A stretch of 64,000 nucleotides of DNA from Adhaeribacter rhizoryzae (GTDB lineage Bacteria > Bacteroidota > Bacteroidia > Cytophagales > Hymenobacteraceae): the NCBI RefSeq assembly GCF_008629685.1, contig NZ_VWSF01000008.1:1-64000 (forward strand), read 5' to 3'. The notes below the pieces were generated by a model that made no database searches, was not told where the DNA came from, and saw only the letters and a list, made by a program, of their open reading frames with translations. How positions within the stretch are numbered: the first letter of the stretch is position 1; the number at the start of each line of letters is the position of its first letter. Both the position numbers and the translations under genes were made by a program. Of the stretch, positions 5,085 through 28,166 are shown in pieces.

Positions 5085-5306
5085 ATGTATTGGACACTGG
5101 AATTAGCCTCATACCTGGAAGATGCCCCTTGGCCAGCAACAAAAGACGAATTGATCGATTATTCAATTCGTTCAGGCGCTCCCATGGAAGTAGTAGAAAA
5201 CCTCCAAGCTCTGGAAGATGACGGACAACCTTATGAAAATATTGAGGAAGTTTGGCCAGACTATCCAACTAAGGAAGACTTCATGTTTAATGAGGACGAA
5301 TATTAA
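5085..5306 (+). CDS. DUF2795 domain-containing small protein
   Basis: A 73-residue acidic protein that begins MYWTLELASYLEDAPWPATK and ends in a run of Asp and Glu. It matches DUF2795, a small family well conserved in Bacteroidota whose biochemical role is unknown to me. The start at 5085 is set by AAGGAG eight bases upstream; an overlapping ATG at 5080 leads to an early stop. It has no signal peptide. It has its own promoter-like element and is followed by an AT-rich inverted repeat. Confidence 0.85.
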   Translation: MYWTLELASYLEDAPWPATKDELIDYSIRSGAPMEVVENLQALEDDGQPYENIEEVWPDYPTKEDFMFNEDEY

Positions 5307-5309
5307 AAT

Positions 5310-5388
5310 TTAATTATGAGTTATAAATTATGAATTAGAAATCCTGTGGTTTTTAATTCATGATTCATAATTTATAATTCATAATTAA
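5310..5388. repeat. AT-rich inverted repeat
   Basis: Two arms of about 27 bases, 5310-5337 and 5362-5388, are near-perfect reverse complements made of AATTATGA/TTCATAAT-type words, separated by a short centre. The right arm ends three bases before the ATG of the next gene, so the element fills the whole intergenic space. It could be a terminator for the DUF2795 gene or a small dispersed repeat. Confidence 0.75.
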
Positions 5389-5390
5389 GA

Positions 5391-6110
5391 ATGTTAGAAG
5401 TAAAGAATCTGGTTGCGGGATACGAACAGCGTGTTCTTATCCGCAACCTTTTTTTTTATGTATCGGCACCGGCTTTTGTAGCTGTGGTGGGGCATAATGG
5501 TGCCGGCAAATCTACTCTCTTCAAAATATTAACCCGTAACTTGCCTTACCAGGGCGAGGTGCTGCTAAACGGCCAGTCCTTACACCATCTTGCTAACCCA
5601 GCCGGTAGCGGGGTGTTGTCTTACCTGCCGCAAAAAAATACCGTTACCTTTCCTATTAAGGTGCGCGATTTGGTTGTAATGGGTTTATTCCGGCACAAAC
5701 GCTTTTTCGAGCAATATTCTGAGCAGGATTACCAAACGGTACAGCACTTATTAAGCGCATTAGAGATTGAACATCTGCTGCACCGGGAATTTACCGAATT
5801 ATCGGGCGGCGAGCAGCAGTTGGTGTGGCTAGCCCAGTTAATGCTGCAGGATGCCGCTATTTGCCTGCTGGATGAACCTACCCAGCAACTGGATATTTAC
5901 CATAAAAAGCGGGTTTTTAATTTGCTTACCAATTGGGTAACCGAAAAAAATAAACTGGTGCTCTGCATTACCCACGATTTAGTTAACCTGCACGGCCACA
6001 CAGGTTATTTATTAAATTTATCTAAACCGGTTCCCACCCTCGAAATTCTTTCACCCGAAATTATTCAGGAGAATATTTCTTACCTCGAAGCAAAGCCACA
6101 TTTAATATAA
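5391..6110 (+). CDS. ABC transporter ATP-binding protein (FecE/HmuV-like)
   Basis: A 239-residue single ABC ATPase. Walker A is GHNGAGKST near residue 34, the Q-loop follows LPQKN, the signature is LSGGEQQ, and Walker B is CLLDEPTQQLD, with the switch histidine in ITHD. The short form and DEPTQQLD resemble ATPases of iron-siderophore, haem or cobalamin importers. No permease or binding protein adjoins it, so its partner must lie elsewhere and its substrate is open. The start abuts the AT-rich inverted repeat, with no clear ribosome site. Confidence 0.75.
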   Translation: MLEVKNLVAGYEQRVLIRNLFFYVSAPAFVAVVGHNGAGKSTLFKILTRNLPYQGEVLLNGQSLHHLANPAGSGVLSYLPQKNTVTFPIKVRDLVVMGLFRHKRFFEQYSEQDYQTVQHLLSALEIEHLLHREFTELSGGEQQLVWLAQLMLQDAAICLLDEPTQQLDIYHKKRVFNLLTNWVTEKNKLVLCITHDLVNLHGHTGYLLNLSKPVPTLEILSPEIIQENISYLEAKPHLI

Positions 6111-6150
6111 CCTGGTTTTACCCGATTTATCAGCTTCAGGCTGGTAAATA

Positions 6151-6764
6151 TTACTTTTGTAGCAAAATTATCCGGAAATTCCCACCAAAATTAGCCGATT
6201 GGTCTAACTGTACTTTTAGGTTGGTTTGGGCTAAAATACTTTCGAAACTGCGGGTAATATCGCTGAACAAAAGATTAGCAAAAATATTAACCGTCCGCCT
6301 GAAAAGCCTGGTTGGTGCCCCGGCGGCAGAAACTTATCGAAAACAACAATATTACCGCCGGGTTTTAATACGCGTTCAGCTTCCTGCAGGCAGCGTACCG
6401 GGTCCGGAATTACTGCCAGAATCAGGTGCAGCACTATTTTATCGAAAGCATTATCTGGCAAAGCAAGTTGTTGCCCGTCCATAACCAAGGCTTTTACCGG
6501 TAGTTGCAACCGCGCACTCCGTTGGGCGAGCCGCGTTACCATGGCTGGCGTAATATCGGTAGCCGTAATAGCGGCAGTTGGGGGCAAAAAATCTAAATCT
6601 AAACCGGTACCAGCGCCTACCAATAAAACGGTATCAGTTGGTTTTACCTGCAGCAATTCAATCGATCTCTTTCTTGATTTAGAAAAAACCTTACCAATTA
6701 CATTGTAAAAAGGACTGTATAGGGTATAGCGGAGCCTGTTCCAGGTATTGGTGTTTATGTTCAT
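6151..6764 (-). pseudogene. Class I SAM-dependent methyltransferase, frameshifted
   Basis: The frame starting at 6764 encodes a normal methyltransferase N-terminus: the SAM-binding motif VLLVGAGTGLDLDFLP near residue 50, then AITATDIT, DNAFDKIVLHL and VLKPGGNIVVFDKFLPPG. After residue ~156 the frame turns into unrelated hydrophobic residues and stops at 6231. In another frame the expected C-terminus continues (NIFANLLFSDITRSFE ... FGGNFRIILLQK) and stops at 6151-6153. Restoring one base in the A4 run at 6302-6305 (T run on the coding strand) joins the two frames into a product of about 204 residues. This is either a real disabling or phase-variable deletion or a sequencing error. The gene converges with the ABC ATPase. 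Its substrate is unknown. Confidence 0.8.
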
Positions 6765-21013: not shown

Positions 21014-21307
21014 TTACTTTTTAGCAATTACCGAGGTTTTAGTAACCTGCGGTTTACCTAACTCGGCGGTAAGCACGTAGCCCACCTGGCCATCTACGGT
21101 TACAATACTCCAGGCGCTGTTGTAGCGGCGCACCACCACAATTTCGTCGGAGCTTTTTAAGGCTTTGAGTACTTCGGTAGAAGTGCCGGGCTGGCGGTAC
21201 ATTTTACTGTTTTCGTAACGGGCACTGGCCATTACGGCCTGGCGGTCGGTAGCAAAACCGAAAGCGGTTTGGGCGGCCAGGGCTAAGGTTAAAATAATCT
21301 TTTTCAT
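21014..21307 (-). CDS. Small exported SH3-domain protein, copy 1
   Basis: A 97-residue protein: signal peptide MKKIILTLALAAQTAFGFA, then a bacterial SH3 domain (MYRQPGTSTEVLKALKSSDE, SAWSIVTVDGQVGYVLTAEL). Such domains often bind peptidoglycan or cell-surface ligands. It is nearly identical to the gene at 27870-28166: a stretch of about 190 codon-aligned bases and the bases just before the start match with only scattered changes. A lysine-rich tail differs slightly (PQVTKTSVIAKK here). It is followed on its strand by hairpin repeats and then the lipoprotein gene. Confidence 0.8.
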   Translation of the reverse strand: MKKIILTLALAAQTAFGFATDRQAVMASARYENSKMYRQPGTSTEVLKALKSSDEIVVVRRYNSAWSIVTVDGQVGYVLTAELGKPQVTKTSVIAKK

Positions 21308-22044: not shown

Positions 22045-22054
22045 CGTTAGTTCA

Positions 22055-22120
22055 GGTGCGTTTATATCTTAGAAAATGGTGTTATAAACGCACCACTTAC
22101 GTTTATAAACGAGTTGTGCG
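22055..22120. other. Palindromic left-end site of the cassette array (attC- or attI-like)
   Basis: A perfect 12-bp inverted repeat, GGTGCGTTTATA at 22055-22066 and its complement at 22083-22094, is followed by the palindrome CGTTTATAAACG (22100-22111) and the core GTTGTGCG (22113-22120). CGCACCAC just before that palindrome complements the core with one mismatch. The core is where cassette 1 begins. It may be a decayed attC of a lost cassette or an attachment site; the sequence does not decide. Confidence 0.55.
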
Positions 22121-22132
22121 CAATTTTTAAAT

Positions 22133-22576
22133 ATGCTTAAGGAAATAAAAACTTCATTTAGTACTCTTCGTCAAACTTCTGACAGAATCATCAAGGTGGT
22201 TAGTGAGATGAGTGGTGTAGAAAAGCATGAAATTTCTATCAGCAGTTCTATCAATATTGACTTAGGCATTGATGGTGATGATTGGACAGACCTGCAAGAG
22301 ACTTTAGAAAATAAGGAAGGCATCTCTTTAGAAGGTTTAAGGTTCTATGATTATTTCTGGGATGAAGGTCAAATTGCTGGTTCTAGTAATTTTATAATAC
22401 CTACAATCATGTTCATTTGGTACCTCATTTCCTTTAAATGGCTAAATAATAAGTTTGTAAATTATTATGAGCGGCCTGGACAATCGACAGATGTGCTGAC
22501 AATTGGTGATATAATCACCTCAAAATATGAAGGCAGGTTTGTTAAACGGTCCGAGAGAAAGTTCGTCCTACAATAA
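22133..22576 (+). CDS. Cassette 1: DUF1493-like protein, hypothetical
   Basis: A 147-residue protein starting 19 bases into its cassette. It contains INIDLGIDGDDWTDLQETL near residue 45, then F..E spacing and LTIGDII near the end. These match the look of DUF1493, a small acyl-carrier-like family (the Dxx-GDDA motif followed by LTVGDL). Here the serine normally modified in true carrier proteins is not evident. A hydrophobic insert (IIPTIMFIWYLISFKWL) interrupts the family's usual layout. It is probably cytoplasmic or weakly membrane-attached. Its role is unknown. Confidence 0.55.
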   Translation: MLKEIKTSFSTLRQTSDRIIKVVSEMSGVEKHEISISSSINIDLGIDGDDWTDLQETLENKEGISLEGLRFYDYFWDEGQIAGSSNFIIPTIMFIWYLISFKWLNNKFVNYYERPGQSTDVLTIGDIITSKYEGRFVKRSERKFVLQ

Positions 22577-22580
22577 ACTC

Positions 22581-22647
22581 CGCACAACCCTGTGTATACC
22601 AAACCTTCGCTACACTTCGGCTTGGCATACACGCGGCCCGTTGGTGG
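22581..22647 (+). other. attC-like site 1 (palindromic type)
   Basis: CGCACAAC at 22581 complements the cassette 1 start. An inner stem pairs TGTGTATACCAA with TTGGCATACACG with one mismatch, and the site ends CCCGTTGG at 22637-22644, where cassette 2 begins. Size and symmetry fit a standard short attC. Confidence 0.85.
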
Positions 22648-22697
22648 TAATTAAAACAAATTAAAATACTTTGGTATATCGCCTCTTACCTAAAAAA

Positions 22698-23402
22698 ATG
22701 AGATTATCGTTTTTGCTTATCTTCTGGTTGTCTATTCTTTCTTTTCGTGTTACTGCACAACAATTAATAGATAAAACAAATCCAGAAACAAAATTTTATG
22801 TAGGATTAGGTTTAATAAATATATCCCATCATATCTATTATAAAAATCCAACCACATCTGGCGAAGTACAGTCAGGATATTTTACGCCAGTAAGTTTAAA
22901 TGTAGGGTATAAGTTAAATAAAAGAGCAAGTCTGCAAATAGGAACTGCTTATGGGGGTAGTAAAGGGCACGTGGAAAGTTTTAATAAAGATGCATCTTTT
23001 GAAGATATAGCATATAAATTTAACGCTCGAACCCGTGTAGTTGCCATTCCAGTAACGATGAACTTTATTTTATTTAATGCAGCCAAAAGTTTACCCATCT
23101 ATGCTACTGCCACTCTAATGCCTGCTTTTGGAACAACAAAAGAAAGGGGTACTAAAACTTACAAAAATCAAACGACTACTATTCATTCCTCTAAGGATGC
23201 TGGTATAAATACATTTATAACTGCTGGTTTAGGAACTAACTTTAAATTAATTGAGCAATTCAGCGCTTTTACGGAAGTTCGATTTTTAAAAAGCAATCTG
23301 AATGGAAACAATTCTAAATATTACGACTGGAATTATGAAAGTCCGGAACTATTCAAATTTATTGCTTCAATTGGTTTAGGTATTAACTATAATTTTAAAT
23401 AA
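22698..23402 (+). CDS. Cassette 2: outer membrane beta-barrel protein, paralogue of cassette 5
   Basis: I use ATG 22698, which starts a signal peptide (MRLSFLLIFWLSILSFRVTA); a TTG 27 bases upstream is less likely. The mature 210 residues have PorT-like barrel strands (GYFTPVSLNVGYKLNKRASLQIG, and ASIGLGINYNFK at the end). It shares HHIYYKNP, GYFTPV, VGYKLN, PIYATAT, MPAFG and a YDW motif with the protein of cassette 5, so the two cassettes carry homologous genes. The ligand is unknown. Confidence 0.75.
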   Translation: MRLSFLLIFWLSILSFRVTAQQLIDKTNPETKFYVGLGLINISHHIYYKNPTTSGEVQSGYFTPVSLNVGYKLNKRASLQIGTAYGGSKGHVESFNKDASFEDIAYKFNARTRVVAIPVTMNFILFNAAKSLPIYATATLMPAFGTTKERGTKTYKNQTTTIHSSKDAGINTFITAGLGTNFKLIEQFSAFTEVRFLKSNLNGNNSKYYDWNYESPELFKFIASIGLGINYNFK

Positions 23403-23432
23403 TTTTTTAGATAGTTAAAGAGAAATCAACTA

Positions 23433-23488
23433 CCACCAACAACAATTAAAGCCCATTAAAACGGGCCCTAGCAGCGGCCCGTTGGCGG
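23433..23488 (+). other. attC-like site 2 (non-classical type)
   Basis: CCACCAAC complements the start of cassette 2 and the site ends CCCGTTGGCGG at the start of cassette 3. The body shares AAAGCCCATTAAA and TAGCAGCGGCCCGTT with sites 4 and 6. It lacks the clear inner stem next to the cores that sites 1 and 3 have; GGGCC/GGCCC near its right side can pair. Confidence 0.75.
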
Positions 23489-23507
23489 TAATAAGACAAA
23501 TAATCAA

Positions 23508-23729
23508 ATGAACTCAGGAAAAAGAATAGCTTTAGGAATAACATTAATATTTCTTGGCTGGCTTTCTTTAGGATTAGGGTACGGAGCATCCTTAGGCGGA
23601 CATCCATTCAATACTATTGTCTTTTTATTGGGCTTTGTTTTTATAATATCAGGAATCATTATTTTATCTTCTAGACGGACAAAGAAATTAAAAGAGAAAA
23701 GCCTAACAGAAGAAATAATACATCCATAA
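23508..23729 (+). CDS. Cassette 3: small two-helix membrane protein, hypothetical
   Basis: A 73-residue protein with two hydrophobic helices (IALGITLIFLGWLSLGLGYG and TIVFLLGFVFIISGIIIL) and a basic C-terminal tail (SSRRTKKLKEKS). It has no recognisable family. It is followed directly by another short gene, with the stop at 23727-23729 and the next ATG at 23730, so the two are probably co-translated. Confidence 0.6.
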   Translation: MNSGKRIALGITLIFLGWLSLGLGYGASLGGHPFNTIVFLLGFVFIISGIIILSSRRTKKLKEKSLTEEIIHP

Positions 23730-23975
23730 ATGTGTCCAGACTGCTTTGAAAACGAATTTAGGTCTTTCCCAACAGAGAAGGCATGGCTAGAATTTGACCT
23801 GTCGCTGACGAAAAAACTCGGCAGTAAAAAAATGAGAAATGTAGAATTTCGACCTGATGGGAAAAGAGACAAAGATGATGGAGAATATATTTATGAATGT
23901 ATGAATTGTAAAGAAAGGTGGAAGTTAAAAGACCCAGATTATTCTATTAGAGGATATTTCTTAAAAATATATTAA
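23730..23975 (+). CDS. Cassette 3: small zinc-ribbon-like protein, hypothetical
   Basis: An 81-residue protein with two CxxC pairs: MCPDC at the start and CMNC near residue 58. Together they could hold one zinc ion. It has no signal peptide and I do not recognise a family. The ATG adjoins the stop of the preceding gene. Confidence 0.55.
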   Translation: MCPDCFENEFRSFPTEKAWLEFDLSLTKKLGSKKMRNVEFRPDGKRDKDDGEYIYECMNCKERWKLKDPDYSIRGYFLKIY

Positions 23976-23985
23976 AAAATTACTC

Positions 23986-24055
23986 CCGCCAACACTGTAT
24001 AAACATCAAGCTACGGCCGACGGCCTTGCTCGTTGTTTATACTAGTCCGTTAGCA
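23986..24055 (+). other. attC-like site 3 (palindromic type)
   Basis: CCGCCAAC complements the start of cassette 3. The inner stem GTATAAACA at 23996-24004 pairs perfectly with TGTTTATAC at 24034-24042. The right core is GTTAGCAG, where cassette 4 begins. The terminal part contains further GC-rich pairing (ACGGCC). This is the most classical attC in the array. Confidence 0.88.
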
Positions 24056-24063
24056 GCAAATAA

Positions 24064-24564
24064 ATGAAAGCTAAATCAGACAAAACAATAGCTTATATAA
24101 TTATTGGGTATGGAATGATTTTCATAATTCCTGCTCTAGTATCACCTTCGTTAGGAATTAATTCTCCTGCTGGAATATTTTGGTGCGTCGTAGGTTTGAT
24201 TCTTTTTGTGCTTCCGGGATTATGGAAAATTGAAAGCTACGAACTGGTTGAAAACAGTTTATTTAAATATAATTTTGGAGGATTATACAAAAGAACTGTT
24301 GACTTAACTGCTTTAGTGCATTATAAAACTAAGCTAGTTAATACAGACTTTGCATCTAATCCCTTAAATGTTGTCCGATTCTTTTCTAAAGATATAAAGT
24401 ACCTAAAATATAGAAAATTAACCTTGGAATTTGAGCATAGTTCAAAAATGACAATAGACGAAAGAGTATTAGAAAAGGCGGACTTTAATAAACTTTTGAA
24501 TAAGATTGCTGGAATTAAAGGTAGAAGAAATAATCAACTGCTAACACAAATTAAAGCCCATTAA
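24064..24564 (+). CDS. Cassette 4: membrane protein, hypothetical
   Basis: A 166-residue protein with two N-terminal helices (IAYIIIGYGMIFIIPALVSP and GIFWCVVGLILFVLPGLW) and a soluble C-terminal part of about 100 residues with a strand pattern like a PH-type or bacterial membrane-flanked domain (LFKYNFGGLYKRTVDLTALV, RKLTLEFEHSSKMTI). The assignment is weak. The last 9 codons run through the R'' core of attC-like site 4, so the C-terminus is encoded by the recombination site and would change if the cassette moved. Confidence 0.6.
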   Translation: MKAKSDKTIAYIIIGYGMIFIIPALVSPSLGINSPAGIFWCVVGLILFVLPGLWKIESYELVENSLFKYNFGGLYKRTVDLTALVHYKTKLVNTDFASNPLNVVRFFSKDIKYLKYRKLTLEFEHSSKMTIDERVLEKADFNKLLNKIAGIKGRRNNQLLTQIKAH

Positions 24565-24592
24565 AACGGGCCTTAGCAGCGGCCCGTTAGCG
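24538..24592 (+). other. attC-like site 4 (non-classical type)
   Basis: CTGCTAAC complements the start of cassette 4; the site ends CCCGTTAGCGA at the start of cassette 5. The body is nearly the same as site 2 (AAAGCCCATTAAAACGGGCC, TAGCAGCGGCCCGTT). The gene of cassette 4 ends inside it. Confidence 0.75.
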
Positions 24593-24605
24593 ATAATTAA
24601 ATTTT

Positions 24606-25298
24606 ATGATTAAAAGAAGTTTATTCTTTTCGTTTCTATTCTTAATTAATTTAGTTGTCTTTGGCCAAGATTCTCTTTCCCAAGTTCAACACAGAAGGTA
24701 TATAGGTTATTATATAACTAATTTGTCTTATCATATCTATTATAATAACCCAGAAACAGCAGGAGAAATGCCATCGGGTTACTTTACACCCGTTACTGTT
24801 AATTTTGGATATAAATTGAACAATAGAATAACCCTTCAGGCAGGGCTTAGTTACGGGCGGGATAAGATTTCAAAAGAATTTCAGACATTACTTTCTCCGG
24901 ATAATTATTTAAACTATGATGGGGTTTCGATTACAAACGCAATCGCTTTACCTCTGACCTTACGGTTTATTTTCATTGGAATAAATAAAAAGCTGCCTAT
25001 CTATGCGACTGCTACCTGTATGCCAGCTTATGGAAGAACCAGATTAAAAACAACCGTATCGCGGGGTGGAGTTATTAATAGCAGAAATGTAACCGATTCT
25101 GGTTTAAACACTTTCTTTAACGCTGGTTTTGGGATTAATTATAAAATTAAAAAGCGGTTTTCTGGATTTACCGAAATTCAACTGGTCAAAAGTAATTTAG
25201 CTGGTTACAATTCTAGATATTATGATTGGTATGGCGATGCTCCTAAATTCTTTCAGTTAAGTGGCTCATTAGGTTTAGGCATAACTTATGATTTATAA
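24606..25298 (+). CDS. Cassette 5: outer membrane beta-barrel protein, paralogue of cassette 2
   Basis: A 230-residue protein with a signal peptide (MIKRSLFFSFLFLINLVVFG). Shared features with the cassette 2 protein are HIYYNNPETAGEMPSGYFTP, NFGYKLN, PIYATAT, MPAYG, YNSRYYDW and the barrel-type C-terminus (LGLGITYDL). The similarity extends over most of both proteins. The function is unknown. Confidence 0.75.
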   Translation: MIKRSLFFSFLFLINLVVFGQDSLSQVQHRRYIGYYITNLSYHIYYNNPETAGEMPSGYFTPVTVNFGYKLNNRITLQAGLSYGRDKISKEFQTLLSPDNYLNYDGVSITNAIALPLTLRFIFIGINKKLPIYATATCMPAYGRTRLKTTVSRGGVINSRNVTDSGLNTFFNAGFGINYKIKKRFSGFTEIQLVKSNLAGYNSRYYDWYGDAPKFFQLSGSLGLGITYDL

Positions 25299-25329
25299 CC
25301 CTGTATCTTTAAATAAAAACCAATACTAT

Positions 25330-25383
25330 CGCTAACCACACCTTTACGGTAGCTGCACCACCGCAAAGGCTTGTACGTTAGCC
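25330..25383 (+). other. attC-like site 5 (palindromic type)
   Basis: TATCGCTAAC (25327-25336) complements the start of cassette 5. An inner stem joins CACCTTTACGGT with ACCGCAAAGG with mismatches, and the site ends TACGTTAGCC, the start of cassette 6. It is clearly palindromic. Confidence 0.8.
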
Positions 25384-25441
25384 AAAAAAAGACATTAGGT
25401 ACTGAAACGGCTTCCTTTGTTAAATATTTTTCCATAAACCT

Positions 25442-25873
25442 ATGATGCTAAAACAACTGGTAGATTTTAGAGACTTTTGCTACGTCTGGGCCGTGAAGCA
25501 ACAAGGAGAAAGTTATGCTGAGTTTAGGGGTAAGATGAAATTAAAGGCAATGTATGGAACTTACTACCTCGCATTGTTAATGTTAATCAGTGTTCTCAAT
25601 TATAAGGCTGGTAATCCCATCCCCATACCAAGAATTCTGGAGGAAAATGTTTTTGCCCAATTAATAGCAGGATTATTTTTATTAGTCCCTTTTAACTTTT
25701 TTATGAATTTCCTTTTAAAGAAAATATCTTCCTTACCGATAGACAAAGATATGTCGCCTGAAAGATATAGGATGTTAAGACCGAAAGTTATTGTATTTTT
25801 TATATTAGGAATGACATTAGCAATAGTCTTTCCCTTTTTATTAGATGGGCTTCTCCCTCCATTCTATAATTAA
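25442..25873 (+). CDS. Cassette 6: membrane protein, hypothetical
   Basis: A 143-residue protein with three hydrophobic helices: MYGTYYLALLMLISVL near residue 38, VFAQLIAGLFLLVPFNFFMN near 70, and a strongly hydrophobic helix near the C-terminus (VIVFFILGMTLAIVFPFLL). No family recognised. The start could be 25442 or the ATG at 25445; neither has an obvious ribosome site. Confidence 0.6.
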   Translation: MMLKQLVDFRDFCYVWAVKQQGESYAEFRGKMKLKAMYGTYYLALLMLISVLNYKAGNPIPIPRILEENVFAQLIAGLFLLVPFNFFMNFLLKKISSLPIDKDMSPERYRMLRPKVIVFFILGMTLAIVFPFLLDGLLPPFYN

Positions 25874-25928
25874 TTTTAGGGTGGTACGATTTTGCCAAAT
25901 GAGAAAAATAAAGAACAAAGAATGACTT

Positions 25929-25983
25929 TGGCTAACAAAAACGAAAGCCCATTAAAGTGTGCCCTAGCAGCGGCCCGTTGGAA
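25929..25983 (+). other. attC-like site 6 (non-classical type)
   Basis: TTGGCTAAC complements the start of cassette 6. The body shares AAAGCCCATTAAA and CCTAGCAGCGGCCCGTTGG with sites 2 and 4, although an inner ACGGG has become GTGTG. It ends at the boundary with the 56-bp remnant. Confidence 0.75.
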
Positions 25984-26040
25984 GTTAAATAATTAAATCT
26001 AAAGTTGACATCGGGCTTCGCATATACTAACCGTTAGCCG
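25978..26040 (+). other. Cassette remnant: right half of an attC site
   Basis: From GTTGGAAG to CCGTTAGCCG there are only 56 bases and no gene. The right part, GGGCTTCGCATATA then ACCGTTAGC, resembles the right half of attC-like site 1 (CTTGGCATACACG, then CCCGTT). The complement of its own start tag (CTTCCAAC) is missing, so the left half and any gene were deleted. Confidence 0.65.
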
Positions 26041-26120: not shown

Positions 26121-26864
26121 ATGGAATTTAACCCAAACAACCCTGTTGTTAAACGCTGTCTGCAAGGTATGGCCATGGAAGAAAATGGCCAACCGGAAGA
26201 AGCAAGCAAGCTGTTTCAGCAAGCCTGGCACGAAGCCACAAACGACTTTGAAAAGTTTTTGGCTACTTACTATGTAGCCCGCCAGCAAAAAAATATTGCT
26301 GATAACTTAAAGTGGCTCGAAACAGCTTTAGCGTTTGCCTTAAAAATAAACGATGATGCCGTTAAGAGTGCTTTTCCGGCGCTGTATTTAAATATTGCCC
26401 AATGCTACGAAGCTTTAGGCGAACCGGACAAGGCAAAACAGCATGATGCTTTAGCTACTGCGTTTAAAGAGAAACCAGCCGATAAAGGTCCTTTTTATCA
26501 TGGCACAAAAGCAGATTTGCAGGTTGGCGATTTGCTAACGCCAGGGGGCAACTCTAATTACAAAGCCGAACTCAAAATGAATCATATTTATTTTACAGCC
26601 CTGGTTAATGGGGCAGGGCTTGCGGCGGCATTAGCCCAAGGCGATGGGCGTGAACGGGTTTACATGGTTGAACCAACCGGGAGTTTCGAAAATGACCCGA
26701 ATGTGACAGATAAAAAATTTCCGGGTAACCCGACCCGTTCTTATCGCTCCGAAGCACCCTTAAAAATTATTGGCGAAGTAACCGATTGGGTGAAACAAAC
26801 ACCGGAGCAACTCCAGCAATGGCGCGAAAAGCTGGCCAATAACAAAGGCGAGATTATTAATTAA
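26121..26864 (+). CDS. arr: Rifampin ADP-ribosyltransferase with N-terminal TPR-like extension
   Basis: A 247-residue protein. Residues about 125-240 match Arr enzymes strongly: FYHGTKADLQVGDLLTPG, YMVEPTGSFENDPNVTDKKF, PGNPTRSYRSEAPLKIIGEV. Arr moves ADP-ribose from NAD to rifamycins and confers resistance. Residues 1-120 are helical with TPR-like pairs (GQPEEASKLFQQAW, LNIAQCYEALGEPDKAKQHD); this kind of extension also occurs in other Bacteroidota Arr proteins. It follows the last array boundary (GTTAGCC at 26033), but the complement of that tag is not found after the gene. It may be a cassette that lost its attC or simply flanking chromosome. Confidence 0.9.
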   Translation: MEFNPNNPVVKRCLQGMAMEENGQPEEASKLFQQAWHEATNDFEKFLATYYVARQQKNIADNLKWLETALAFALKINDDAVKSAFPALYLNIAQCYEALGEPDKAKQHDALATAFKEKPADKGPFYHGTKADLQVGDLLTPGGNSNYKAELKMNHIYFTALVNGAGLAAALAQGDGRERVYMVEPTGSFENDPNVTDKKFPGNPTRSYRSEAPLKIIGEVTDWVKQTPEQLQQWREKLANNKGEIIN

Positions 26865-27869: not shown

Positions 27870-28166
27870 TTACTTTTTGGCAATTACCTGGTGGGTAGCC
27901 GGTTTAATGGGTTTGGCCAACTCGGCGGTAAGCACGTAGCCCACCTGGCCATCTACAGTTACAATACTCCAGGCACTGTTGTAGCGGCGCACCACCACAA
28001 TTTCGTCGGAGCTTTTTAAGGCTTTAAGTACTTCGGTAGAAGTGCCGGGCTGGCGGTACATTTTACTGTTTTCGTAACGGGCACTGGCCGTTACTGCCTG
28101 GTGGCCATCGGCAAAACCAAAAGCGGTTTGGGCGGCCAGGGCTAAGGTTAAAATAATCTTTTTCAT
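27870..28166 (-). CDS. Small exported SH3-domain protein, copy 2
   Basis: A 98-residue protein with the same signal peptide and SH3 domain as the gene at 21014-21307, with a few changes (FADGHQAV for FATDRQAV, tail IKPATHQVIAKK). Identity also covers the bases just before the start codon. It is followed on its strand by hairpin repeats and then a lipoprotein gene. It is probably periplasmic or surface-exposed; its ligand is unknown. Confidence 0.8.
   Translation of the reverse strand: MKKIILTLALAAQTAFGFADGHQAVTASARYENSKMYRQPGTSTEVLKALKSSDEIVVVRRYNSAWSIVTVDGQVGYVLTAELAKPIKPATHQVIAKK

Follow-up and report, generated by a model that had tools for sequence, protein, structure and literature searches.

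A gene cassette array at an attI-like site in Adhaeribacter rhizoryzae and a Bacteroidota family of integrases lacking the IntI patch

Introduction

Integrons and sedentary chromosomal integrons share a set of marks: paired R''/R' tags, G^TT junctions, attC sites that fold as the bottom strand, an attI site at the head of the array, an integrase gene adjoining it, and small genes mostly of unassigned function. Their integrase, IntI, is recognised through an extra domain (PMC2426708; PMC9024848), and Bacteroidota are counted among the integron phyla (PMC9668308). Here we describe an array that bears all of these marks except the adjoining integrase gene, in a 64,000-nt stretch of Adhaeribacter rhizoryzae (Hymenobacteraceae; NZ_VWSF01000008.1, positions 1 to 64,000; hereafter the window), which is contig C52 of a 6.5-Mb genome in 53 contigs. 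The builder of the array was very probably a tyrosine integrase that acted in trans at a fixed attI of the chromosome—a member, carried on contig C36, of a Bacteroidota family that lacks the IntI patch ("patchless") and is co-oriented with its own arrays.

Other described systems resemble parts of what we report. Clusters of attC sites without an integrase are known as CALIN and are defined by at least two attC (PMC9024848); archaeal XerA and the NCBIfam entry NF040815 ("site-specific tyrosine recombinase/integron integrase") resemble the enzyme; and Acinetobacter plasmids carry modules in which a "xerD" gene precedes tet(X3) or tet(X5). The arrangement xerD-tet(X)-res-ISCR2 has been described without a tie to an integron integrase (PMC7530245), and no integron was found beside tet(X14), where testing the role of XerD was called of interest (PMC7473080).

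The cassette array

The array is bounded by G^TT junctions at 22113, 22640, 23481, 24049, 24586, 25377 and 25977, which delimit six units (22114-25977) of 527, 841, 568, 537, 791 and 600 bp, just as the original prediction of six consecutive segments of 0.53-0.84 kb had it. The units open with the tags TTGTGCG, TTGGTGGTA, TTGGCGG, TTAGCAG, TTAGCGATA and TTAGCCAAA, respectively. In all six, this start tag (the first 7-9 nt, where 8-10 bases had been given) finds its exact reverse complement 49-64 nt before the end of its own unit, while the longest tag-complement match between different units is 5 nt; complementarity within but not between units had been the core of the prediction. Random stretches of 110 nt from this region gave matches of at least 7 nt at a rate of 56/12375 per unit (0.45%), and six matches in six units are therefore far beyond chance. 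The remaining predicted traits held as well—the open reading frames (ORFs) filling the units all lie on the + strand, and the cassettes have a G+C content of 0.32-0.38, compared with 0.44 in the flanks. This confirms the six small genes as true gene cassettes.

Chance similarity is scarcely credible as an account of the array, and so is the dispersal of repeat units by way of transposons, introns or Xer-pdif modules. Group II intron sequence does occur near attCs on C36, and ISVsa3/ISCR2 on the tet(X3) plasmids; however, the tag complementarity is specific to each unit and far above control rates, a Pfam search of the ORFs in the window array turned up no transposase, and G^TT junctions are precise to the base in independent contexts.

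At the head of the array, on the + strand, lies an attI-like site (22081-22113), in which the inverted repeat TTATAAACGCA...TACGTTTATAA is followed by ACGAG^TT. It aligns over 33 nt without gaps to the attI of three Hymenobacteraceae integrons, with 20-21 of 33 positions identical in each case, and ranks first among 4194 GTT sites by attI similarity; this resemblance, together with the inverted repeat, marks it as a putative attI. Unlike that of integrons, the attI of the patchless system consists of a palindrome lying a few bases 5' of the junction. Beside the site, at 22053-22097, we observed a 12-bp inverted repeat (GGTGCGTTTATA / TATAAACGCACC), and similar GGTGC/GCACC motifs stand beside the attI of C36 (L016 3440-3560); such repeats could be accessory binding sites. 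A second attI-like match in the genome (C9:19297) was taken as chance, as there was no convincing array there.

The locus had been labelled a CALIN, and in part this stands: six attC-like sites, called by their tags, lie together with no IntI nearby. Unlike CALIN, however, the array has an attI-like site at its start and a matching integrase elsewhere in the genome, so that an integrase-less integron describes it better than a bare attC cluster.

For folding, each attC was rebuilt as it would be in the circular cassette (R'' ... G plus its own TT-tag), and both strands were folded. Five of the six window sites gave the better fold on the bottom strand, with one tie, which gives the boundaries the attC-type folds that had been proposed as a check; the bottom strand of the cassette 3 site (23986-24049) folds with z -4.8, and the site at 25929-25977 folds poorly in situ. 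Across rebuilt attCs of the family at large, the bottom strand was more stable in 73 of 82 (mean -3.0 kcal/mol, p 3e-14). Family attC lengths show a sharp peak at 126-127 nt and a second group at 46-63 nt, the latter chiefly from Hymenobacteraceae; 29 long attCs have a common stem, with compensatory changes in 11 of 11 pairs. The A. rhizoryzae genome holds other matches of the long type (C4:137378-137511, C45:114490, C6:120203, C2:160151 and C12:29467), and further small or single-cassette arrays are probably present in it.

Cassette turnover between related genomes

The same locus in A. aerolatus has a conserved attI-like site and conserved flanks—identity is 87-88% on the left, as far as the junction, and 83% beyond the last junction on the right—and between the same two junctions it has two cassettes unrelated to those of the window. 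This is the opposite of the shared genes in shared order that the original prediction had named as evidence against itself, and, with the folds, it upholds the view of an integron-type array. In both species the patchless integrase is absent from the locus and present elsewhere in the genome. The A. aerolatus integrase frame (L020 / L180) has a stop codon within the matched region, towards its N-terminal part, and its N-terminal repeats may have been lost. Kordia loci likewise have one attI in common and different first cassettes. Comparison of the sister locus, Kordia and tet(X) (see below) indicates that cassettes move between arrays at G^TT.

These comparisons bear on whether the array is a dead relic, with cassettes passively inherited and long without recombination, which we consider unlikely. 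A relic would fit the lack of an integrase here in both Adhaeribacter species, the poor in situ fold at 25929-25977 and the truncated last unit of the array; it would not fit entirely different cassettes between the same junctions, within flanks 83-88% identical. Moreover, the attI can still be recognised, as can five of the six tag pairs, and the attC on C36 is nearly identical to three of those in the window.

The integrase on contig C36

Searches with tblastn found no integrase of the patchless family, or remnant of one, in the window, in line with the claim that none lies nearby. No IntI scored over the cut-off anywhere in the A. rhizoryzae genome, and apart from C36 there were only sub-threshold Xer-like matches. 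C36 is a plasmid-like contig of 14 kb with Rep3, a ParA-like ATPase, a MobB-like relaxase and a 483-aa tyrosine recombinase. A G^TT stands 171 nt past the recombinase gene, followed by a cassette, TTAGGGAAA...TTTCCCTAA, with the attC AAAGCCCATTAAAACGGGCATTAGCAGCGGCCCGTT. Of the four copies of this attC subtype in the genome, three lie in the window and one on C36; 11 relatives have no copy. The C36 enzyme is likely the integrase that acts on the window array, to judge by these sites. The earlier proposal of a tyrosine integrase encoded elsewhere or lost thus fares well in its first part—C36 offers integrase, attI and cassette with the attC subtype of the window—while a canonical IntI is not what was found.

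Against the IntI model TIGR02249 the C36 integrase scores 199.6 bits (cut-off 265), with the alignment confined to the parts on either side of the patch. It also falls under the cut-offs of the housekeeping equivalogs XerA (200.3 against 220), XerD (188.2 against 329.6) and XerC (187.4 against 335.15). Its closest likeness is to archaeal XerA / NF040815, which provides both the best NCBIfam match and the best structure match (5hxy) of a predicted fold with an Xer/IntI-like core; unlike that family, it scores below the family cut-off and heads cassette arrays. The N-terminal part consists of two repeats (AlphaFold pLDDT 84), for which the PDB yielded no relative at E <= 0.001. A suspected resemblance to HARP was set aside when no Pfam match backed it.

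Class C group II introns target attC. On C36 (L016) a group II intron D1-D4 match (RF02001) lies at 1871-2041, on the strand opposite the cassettes, and adjoins the attC R'' of cassette 2 of that contig. A 345-bp copy is repeated there at 203-547 and 2019-2363, which may reflect assembly collapse.

The patchless integrase family in Bacteroidota

Relatives of the C36 enzyme share its lack of the 41-residue IntI patch. The spacing from K-box to HxLRH is 58-63 residues in 63 of 63 family members measured, compared with exactly 100 in six canonical Bacteroidota IntI, and the W..FP patch motif is found in none of 65 family members and in all six canonical IntI; a search relying on the patch would therefore not call the enzyme an IntI. 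In a tree, canonical IntI form one clade (SH-aLRT 100), while the branching of patchless members relative to IntI is poorly resolved, and we therefore make no claim on which enzyme type came first. A high-scoring patchless integrase was present in about 18% of a phylum-wide Bacteroidota sample (71 of about 390 genomes), and integrase-cassette units are found both on closed plasmids of Pontibacter and Chryseobacterium and on the chromosomes of relatives from the same genus and family.

First cassettes were called by a strict rule: an 8-nt tag at most 260 nt from the integrase stop, its exact complement 0.25-2.5 kb further on, and then CGTT. This rule, used with controls, replaced a tag-chain finder that allowed any GTT and returned too many chance chains. 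It is informative but not error-free, as 15% (167/1100) of random anchors in reversed sequence pass it, and single-cassette calls need caution. A tag-verified first cassette lay downstream of 38 of 55 high-scoring integrases, compared with 19 of 468 control ORF ends (p 2e-30), co-orientation in this count being fixed by the construction of the test. An integrase gene adjoining the array, missing at the window locus, is present on C36 and at these 38 loci. With a covariance model of the long attC type, matches were found in 66 of the 71 genomes positive for the integrase, compared with 123 of the other 319 (p 2e-18), and at least five attC sites in 49 of 71 and 42 of 319, respectively; most of the 71 genomes with a patchless integrase also carry its attC. 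The family differs from integrons in its patchless integrase, in the co-orientation of integrase and array, and often in an N-terminal repeat domain.

Could a canonical, patch-bearing IntI have built the window array and later been lost, or have visited on a mobile element, leaving the patchless recombinase a mere passenger? We judge this improbable. Very diverse attC are usable by canonical IntI (PMC9668308), and an IntI over the cut-off is present in six of 30 genomes with patchless arrays; but it is absent from the A. rhizoryzae genome and from the other 24. In addition, the patchless gene sits directly upstream of the first cassette, and co-oriented with it, at the 38 loci above, whereas at L143, the single canonical Bacteroidota locus where an array could be detected, the array is divergent from intI.

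A number of points weigh against construction in trans by a patchless integrase. The six of 30 patchless-integrase genomes that also have a canonical IntI are one, and the 17 of 55 integrases without a tag-verified cassette under the strict rule are another. The 42 of 319 genomes with at least five attC but no high-scoring integrase suggest that some arrays are partnerless or served by another enzyme. Contig C36 is not closed, its ends showing no overlap, and it is tied to the window by the similarity of their sites; divergence from the sister species dates the cassette change only to after the species split. Finally, the structural literature links attC recognition to the IntI patch, which this family lacks.

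tet(X) as a gene cassette

A plasmid search with the C36 integrase led to "xerD" fragments beside tet(X3) and tet(X5). In Acinetobacter and pHH1107 plasmids (L195 5010-7110, L194, L196), the "xerD/TnpF" upstream of these genes is a truncated patchless integrase followed by an attI-like site; the fragment is 52% identical to the C36 integrase across its C-terminal half. Behind it come a palindrome and ..CCACTTG^TTATGTGCC, with tet(X3) beginning 18 nt past G^TT and its attC cut off by the res/ISCR2 segment. The Acinetobacter tet(X3) copy was considered as a perfect cassette and rejected, as its start tag TTATGTG and R'' CTACTAAC do not match. The layout is that of the published modules (PMC7530245, PMC7473080), in which an Xer recombinase is seen; in our reading it is a Bacteroidota integron fragment with a truncated tet(X3) attC.

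A more complete form is found in a Bacteroidota chromosome (G059; L207, reverse-complement 5286-6613), where a degraded integrase and an attI-like site precede tet(X) as the first cassette. It has a 9-nt tag (TTATGTGCC), the complement GGCACATAA and an attC of 128 nt, and two more cassettes follow. The same tet(X) cassette follows an attC-type end in Empedobacter falsenii, and occurs with one tag mismatch in Bacteroides fragilis; the attC model recovers the sites of all three, none of which was in its training set. With precise G^TT junctions in several contexts, tet(X)—a resistance gene for last-resort antibiotics—is, as far as sequence can tell, a cassette of the patchless system.

We think it likely that a second class of Bacteroidota integron, with a patchless co-oriented integrase, folded attC and recognition by means other than the patch, mobilised tet(X) and gave the Acinetobacter tet(X3)/tet(X5) plasmids their "xerD" fragment, rather than canonical integrons or a housekeeping XerD. 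This integron type is widespread in Bacteroidota and apparently undescribed: we found no paper on patchless integron integrases or on tet(X) as a cassette, in a search that left most subscription papers and bioRxiv preprints outside and so does not establish priority.

Proposed mechanism

Construction in trans by the C36 integrase is the best explanation because of several lines of evidence taken together. At the locus, these are the tags, the attI ranked first of 4194, and a C36 integrase with attI and a cassette of common attC subtype; across the family, the counts of 38/55 against 19/468 and 66/71 against 123/319, the 11/11 stem pairs and the 73/82 bottom strands; and between genomes, the differing A. 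aerolatus cassettes with an integrase elsewhere, the Kordia attI, and tet(X) at G^TT. In the circular cassette, R'' would pair with the tag at the cassette's own start, and the bottom strand of attC would be offered to the integrase in folded, single-stranded form. After a cut at the G^TT of R', the enzyme would join the cassette to G^TT in attI. Further cassettes would enter at the same point, and recombination between attC sites would remove or shuffle them.

These patterns strongly imply recombination of attC by the patchless enzyme. We infer further that the C36 enzyme acts on the window locus and recombines folded single strands, and that some other feature takes the place of the IntI patch in recognising attC, possibly the repeat domain that many members carry at the N-terminus. 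A working enzyme would mean that attC can be recognised without the patch, which allows a direct mechanistic test.

Individual cassettes and neighbouring genes

The six cassettes all lie on the + strand. Cassette 1 (22114-22640; ORF 22133-22576, 147 aa; attC 22581-22640) encodes a protein with weak similarity to acyl carrier proteins (weak NCBIfam matches). Cassette 2 (22641-23481; ORF 22698-23402; attC 23433-23481) encodes an outer-membrane beta-barrel-like protein, with a PF13505 match (7e-6) slightly under the cut-off, and cassette 5 (24587-25377; ORF 24606-25298; attC 25329-25377) its beta-barrel paralogue (PF13505, 8e-5). No function could be assigned to the two ORFs of cassette 3 (23482-24049; ORFs 23508-23729 and 23730-23975; attC 23986-24049), nor to that of cassette 4 (24050-24586; ORF 24064-24564; attC 24538-24586), and the ORF of cassette 6 (25378-25977; ORF 25442-25873; attC 25929-25977) has no Pfam match.

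Cassette 4 has a homolog (L183 2653-3153, 75% nucleotide identity) that stands first in the array of an intact integron from another genus. The two have the ORF and start tag in common and unlike attC bodies, and the attC of cassette 4 is more like that of the C36 cassette than that of its homolog; it seems that an attC body was exchanged within a cassette.

The array closes with a truncated seventh unit on the + strand (25978-26033), the right part of an attC-like end, in which no complement of its own tag was found. The conserved right flank begins with the base after 26033, and homology with A. aerolatus picks up again at 26035. Directly to the right, at 26121-26864, a TPR region is fused to a rifampin ADP-ribosyltransferase (Arr) domain above the NCBIfam cut-off; this gene is kept at the same locus in A. 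aerolatus. Near-identical SH3-domain genes lie on the minus strand some 1-2 kb to either side of the array (21014-21307 and 27870-28166), and such a pair flanks the locus in A. aerolatus too.

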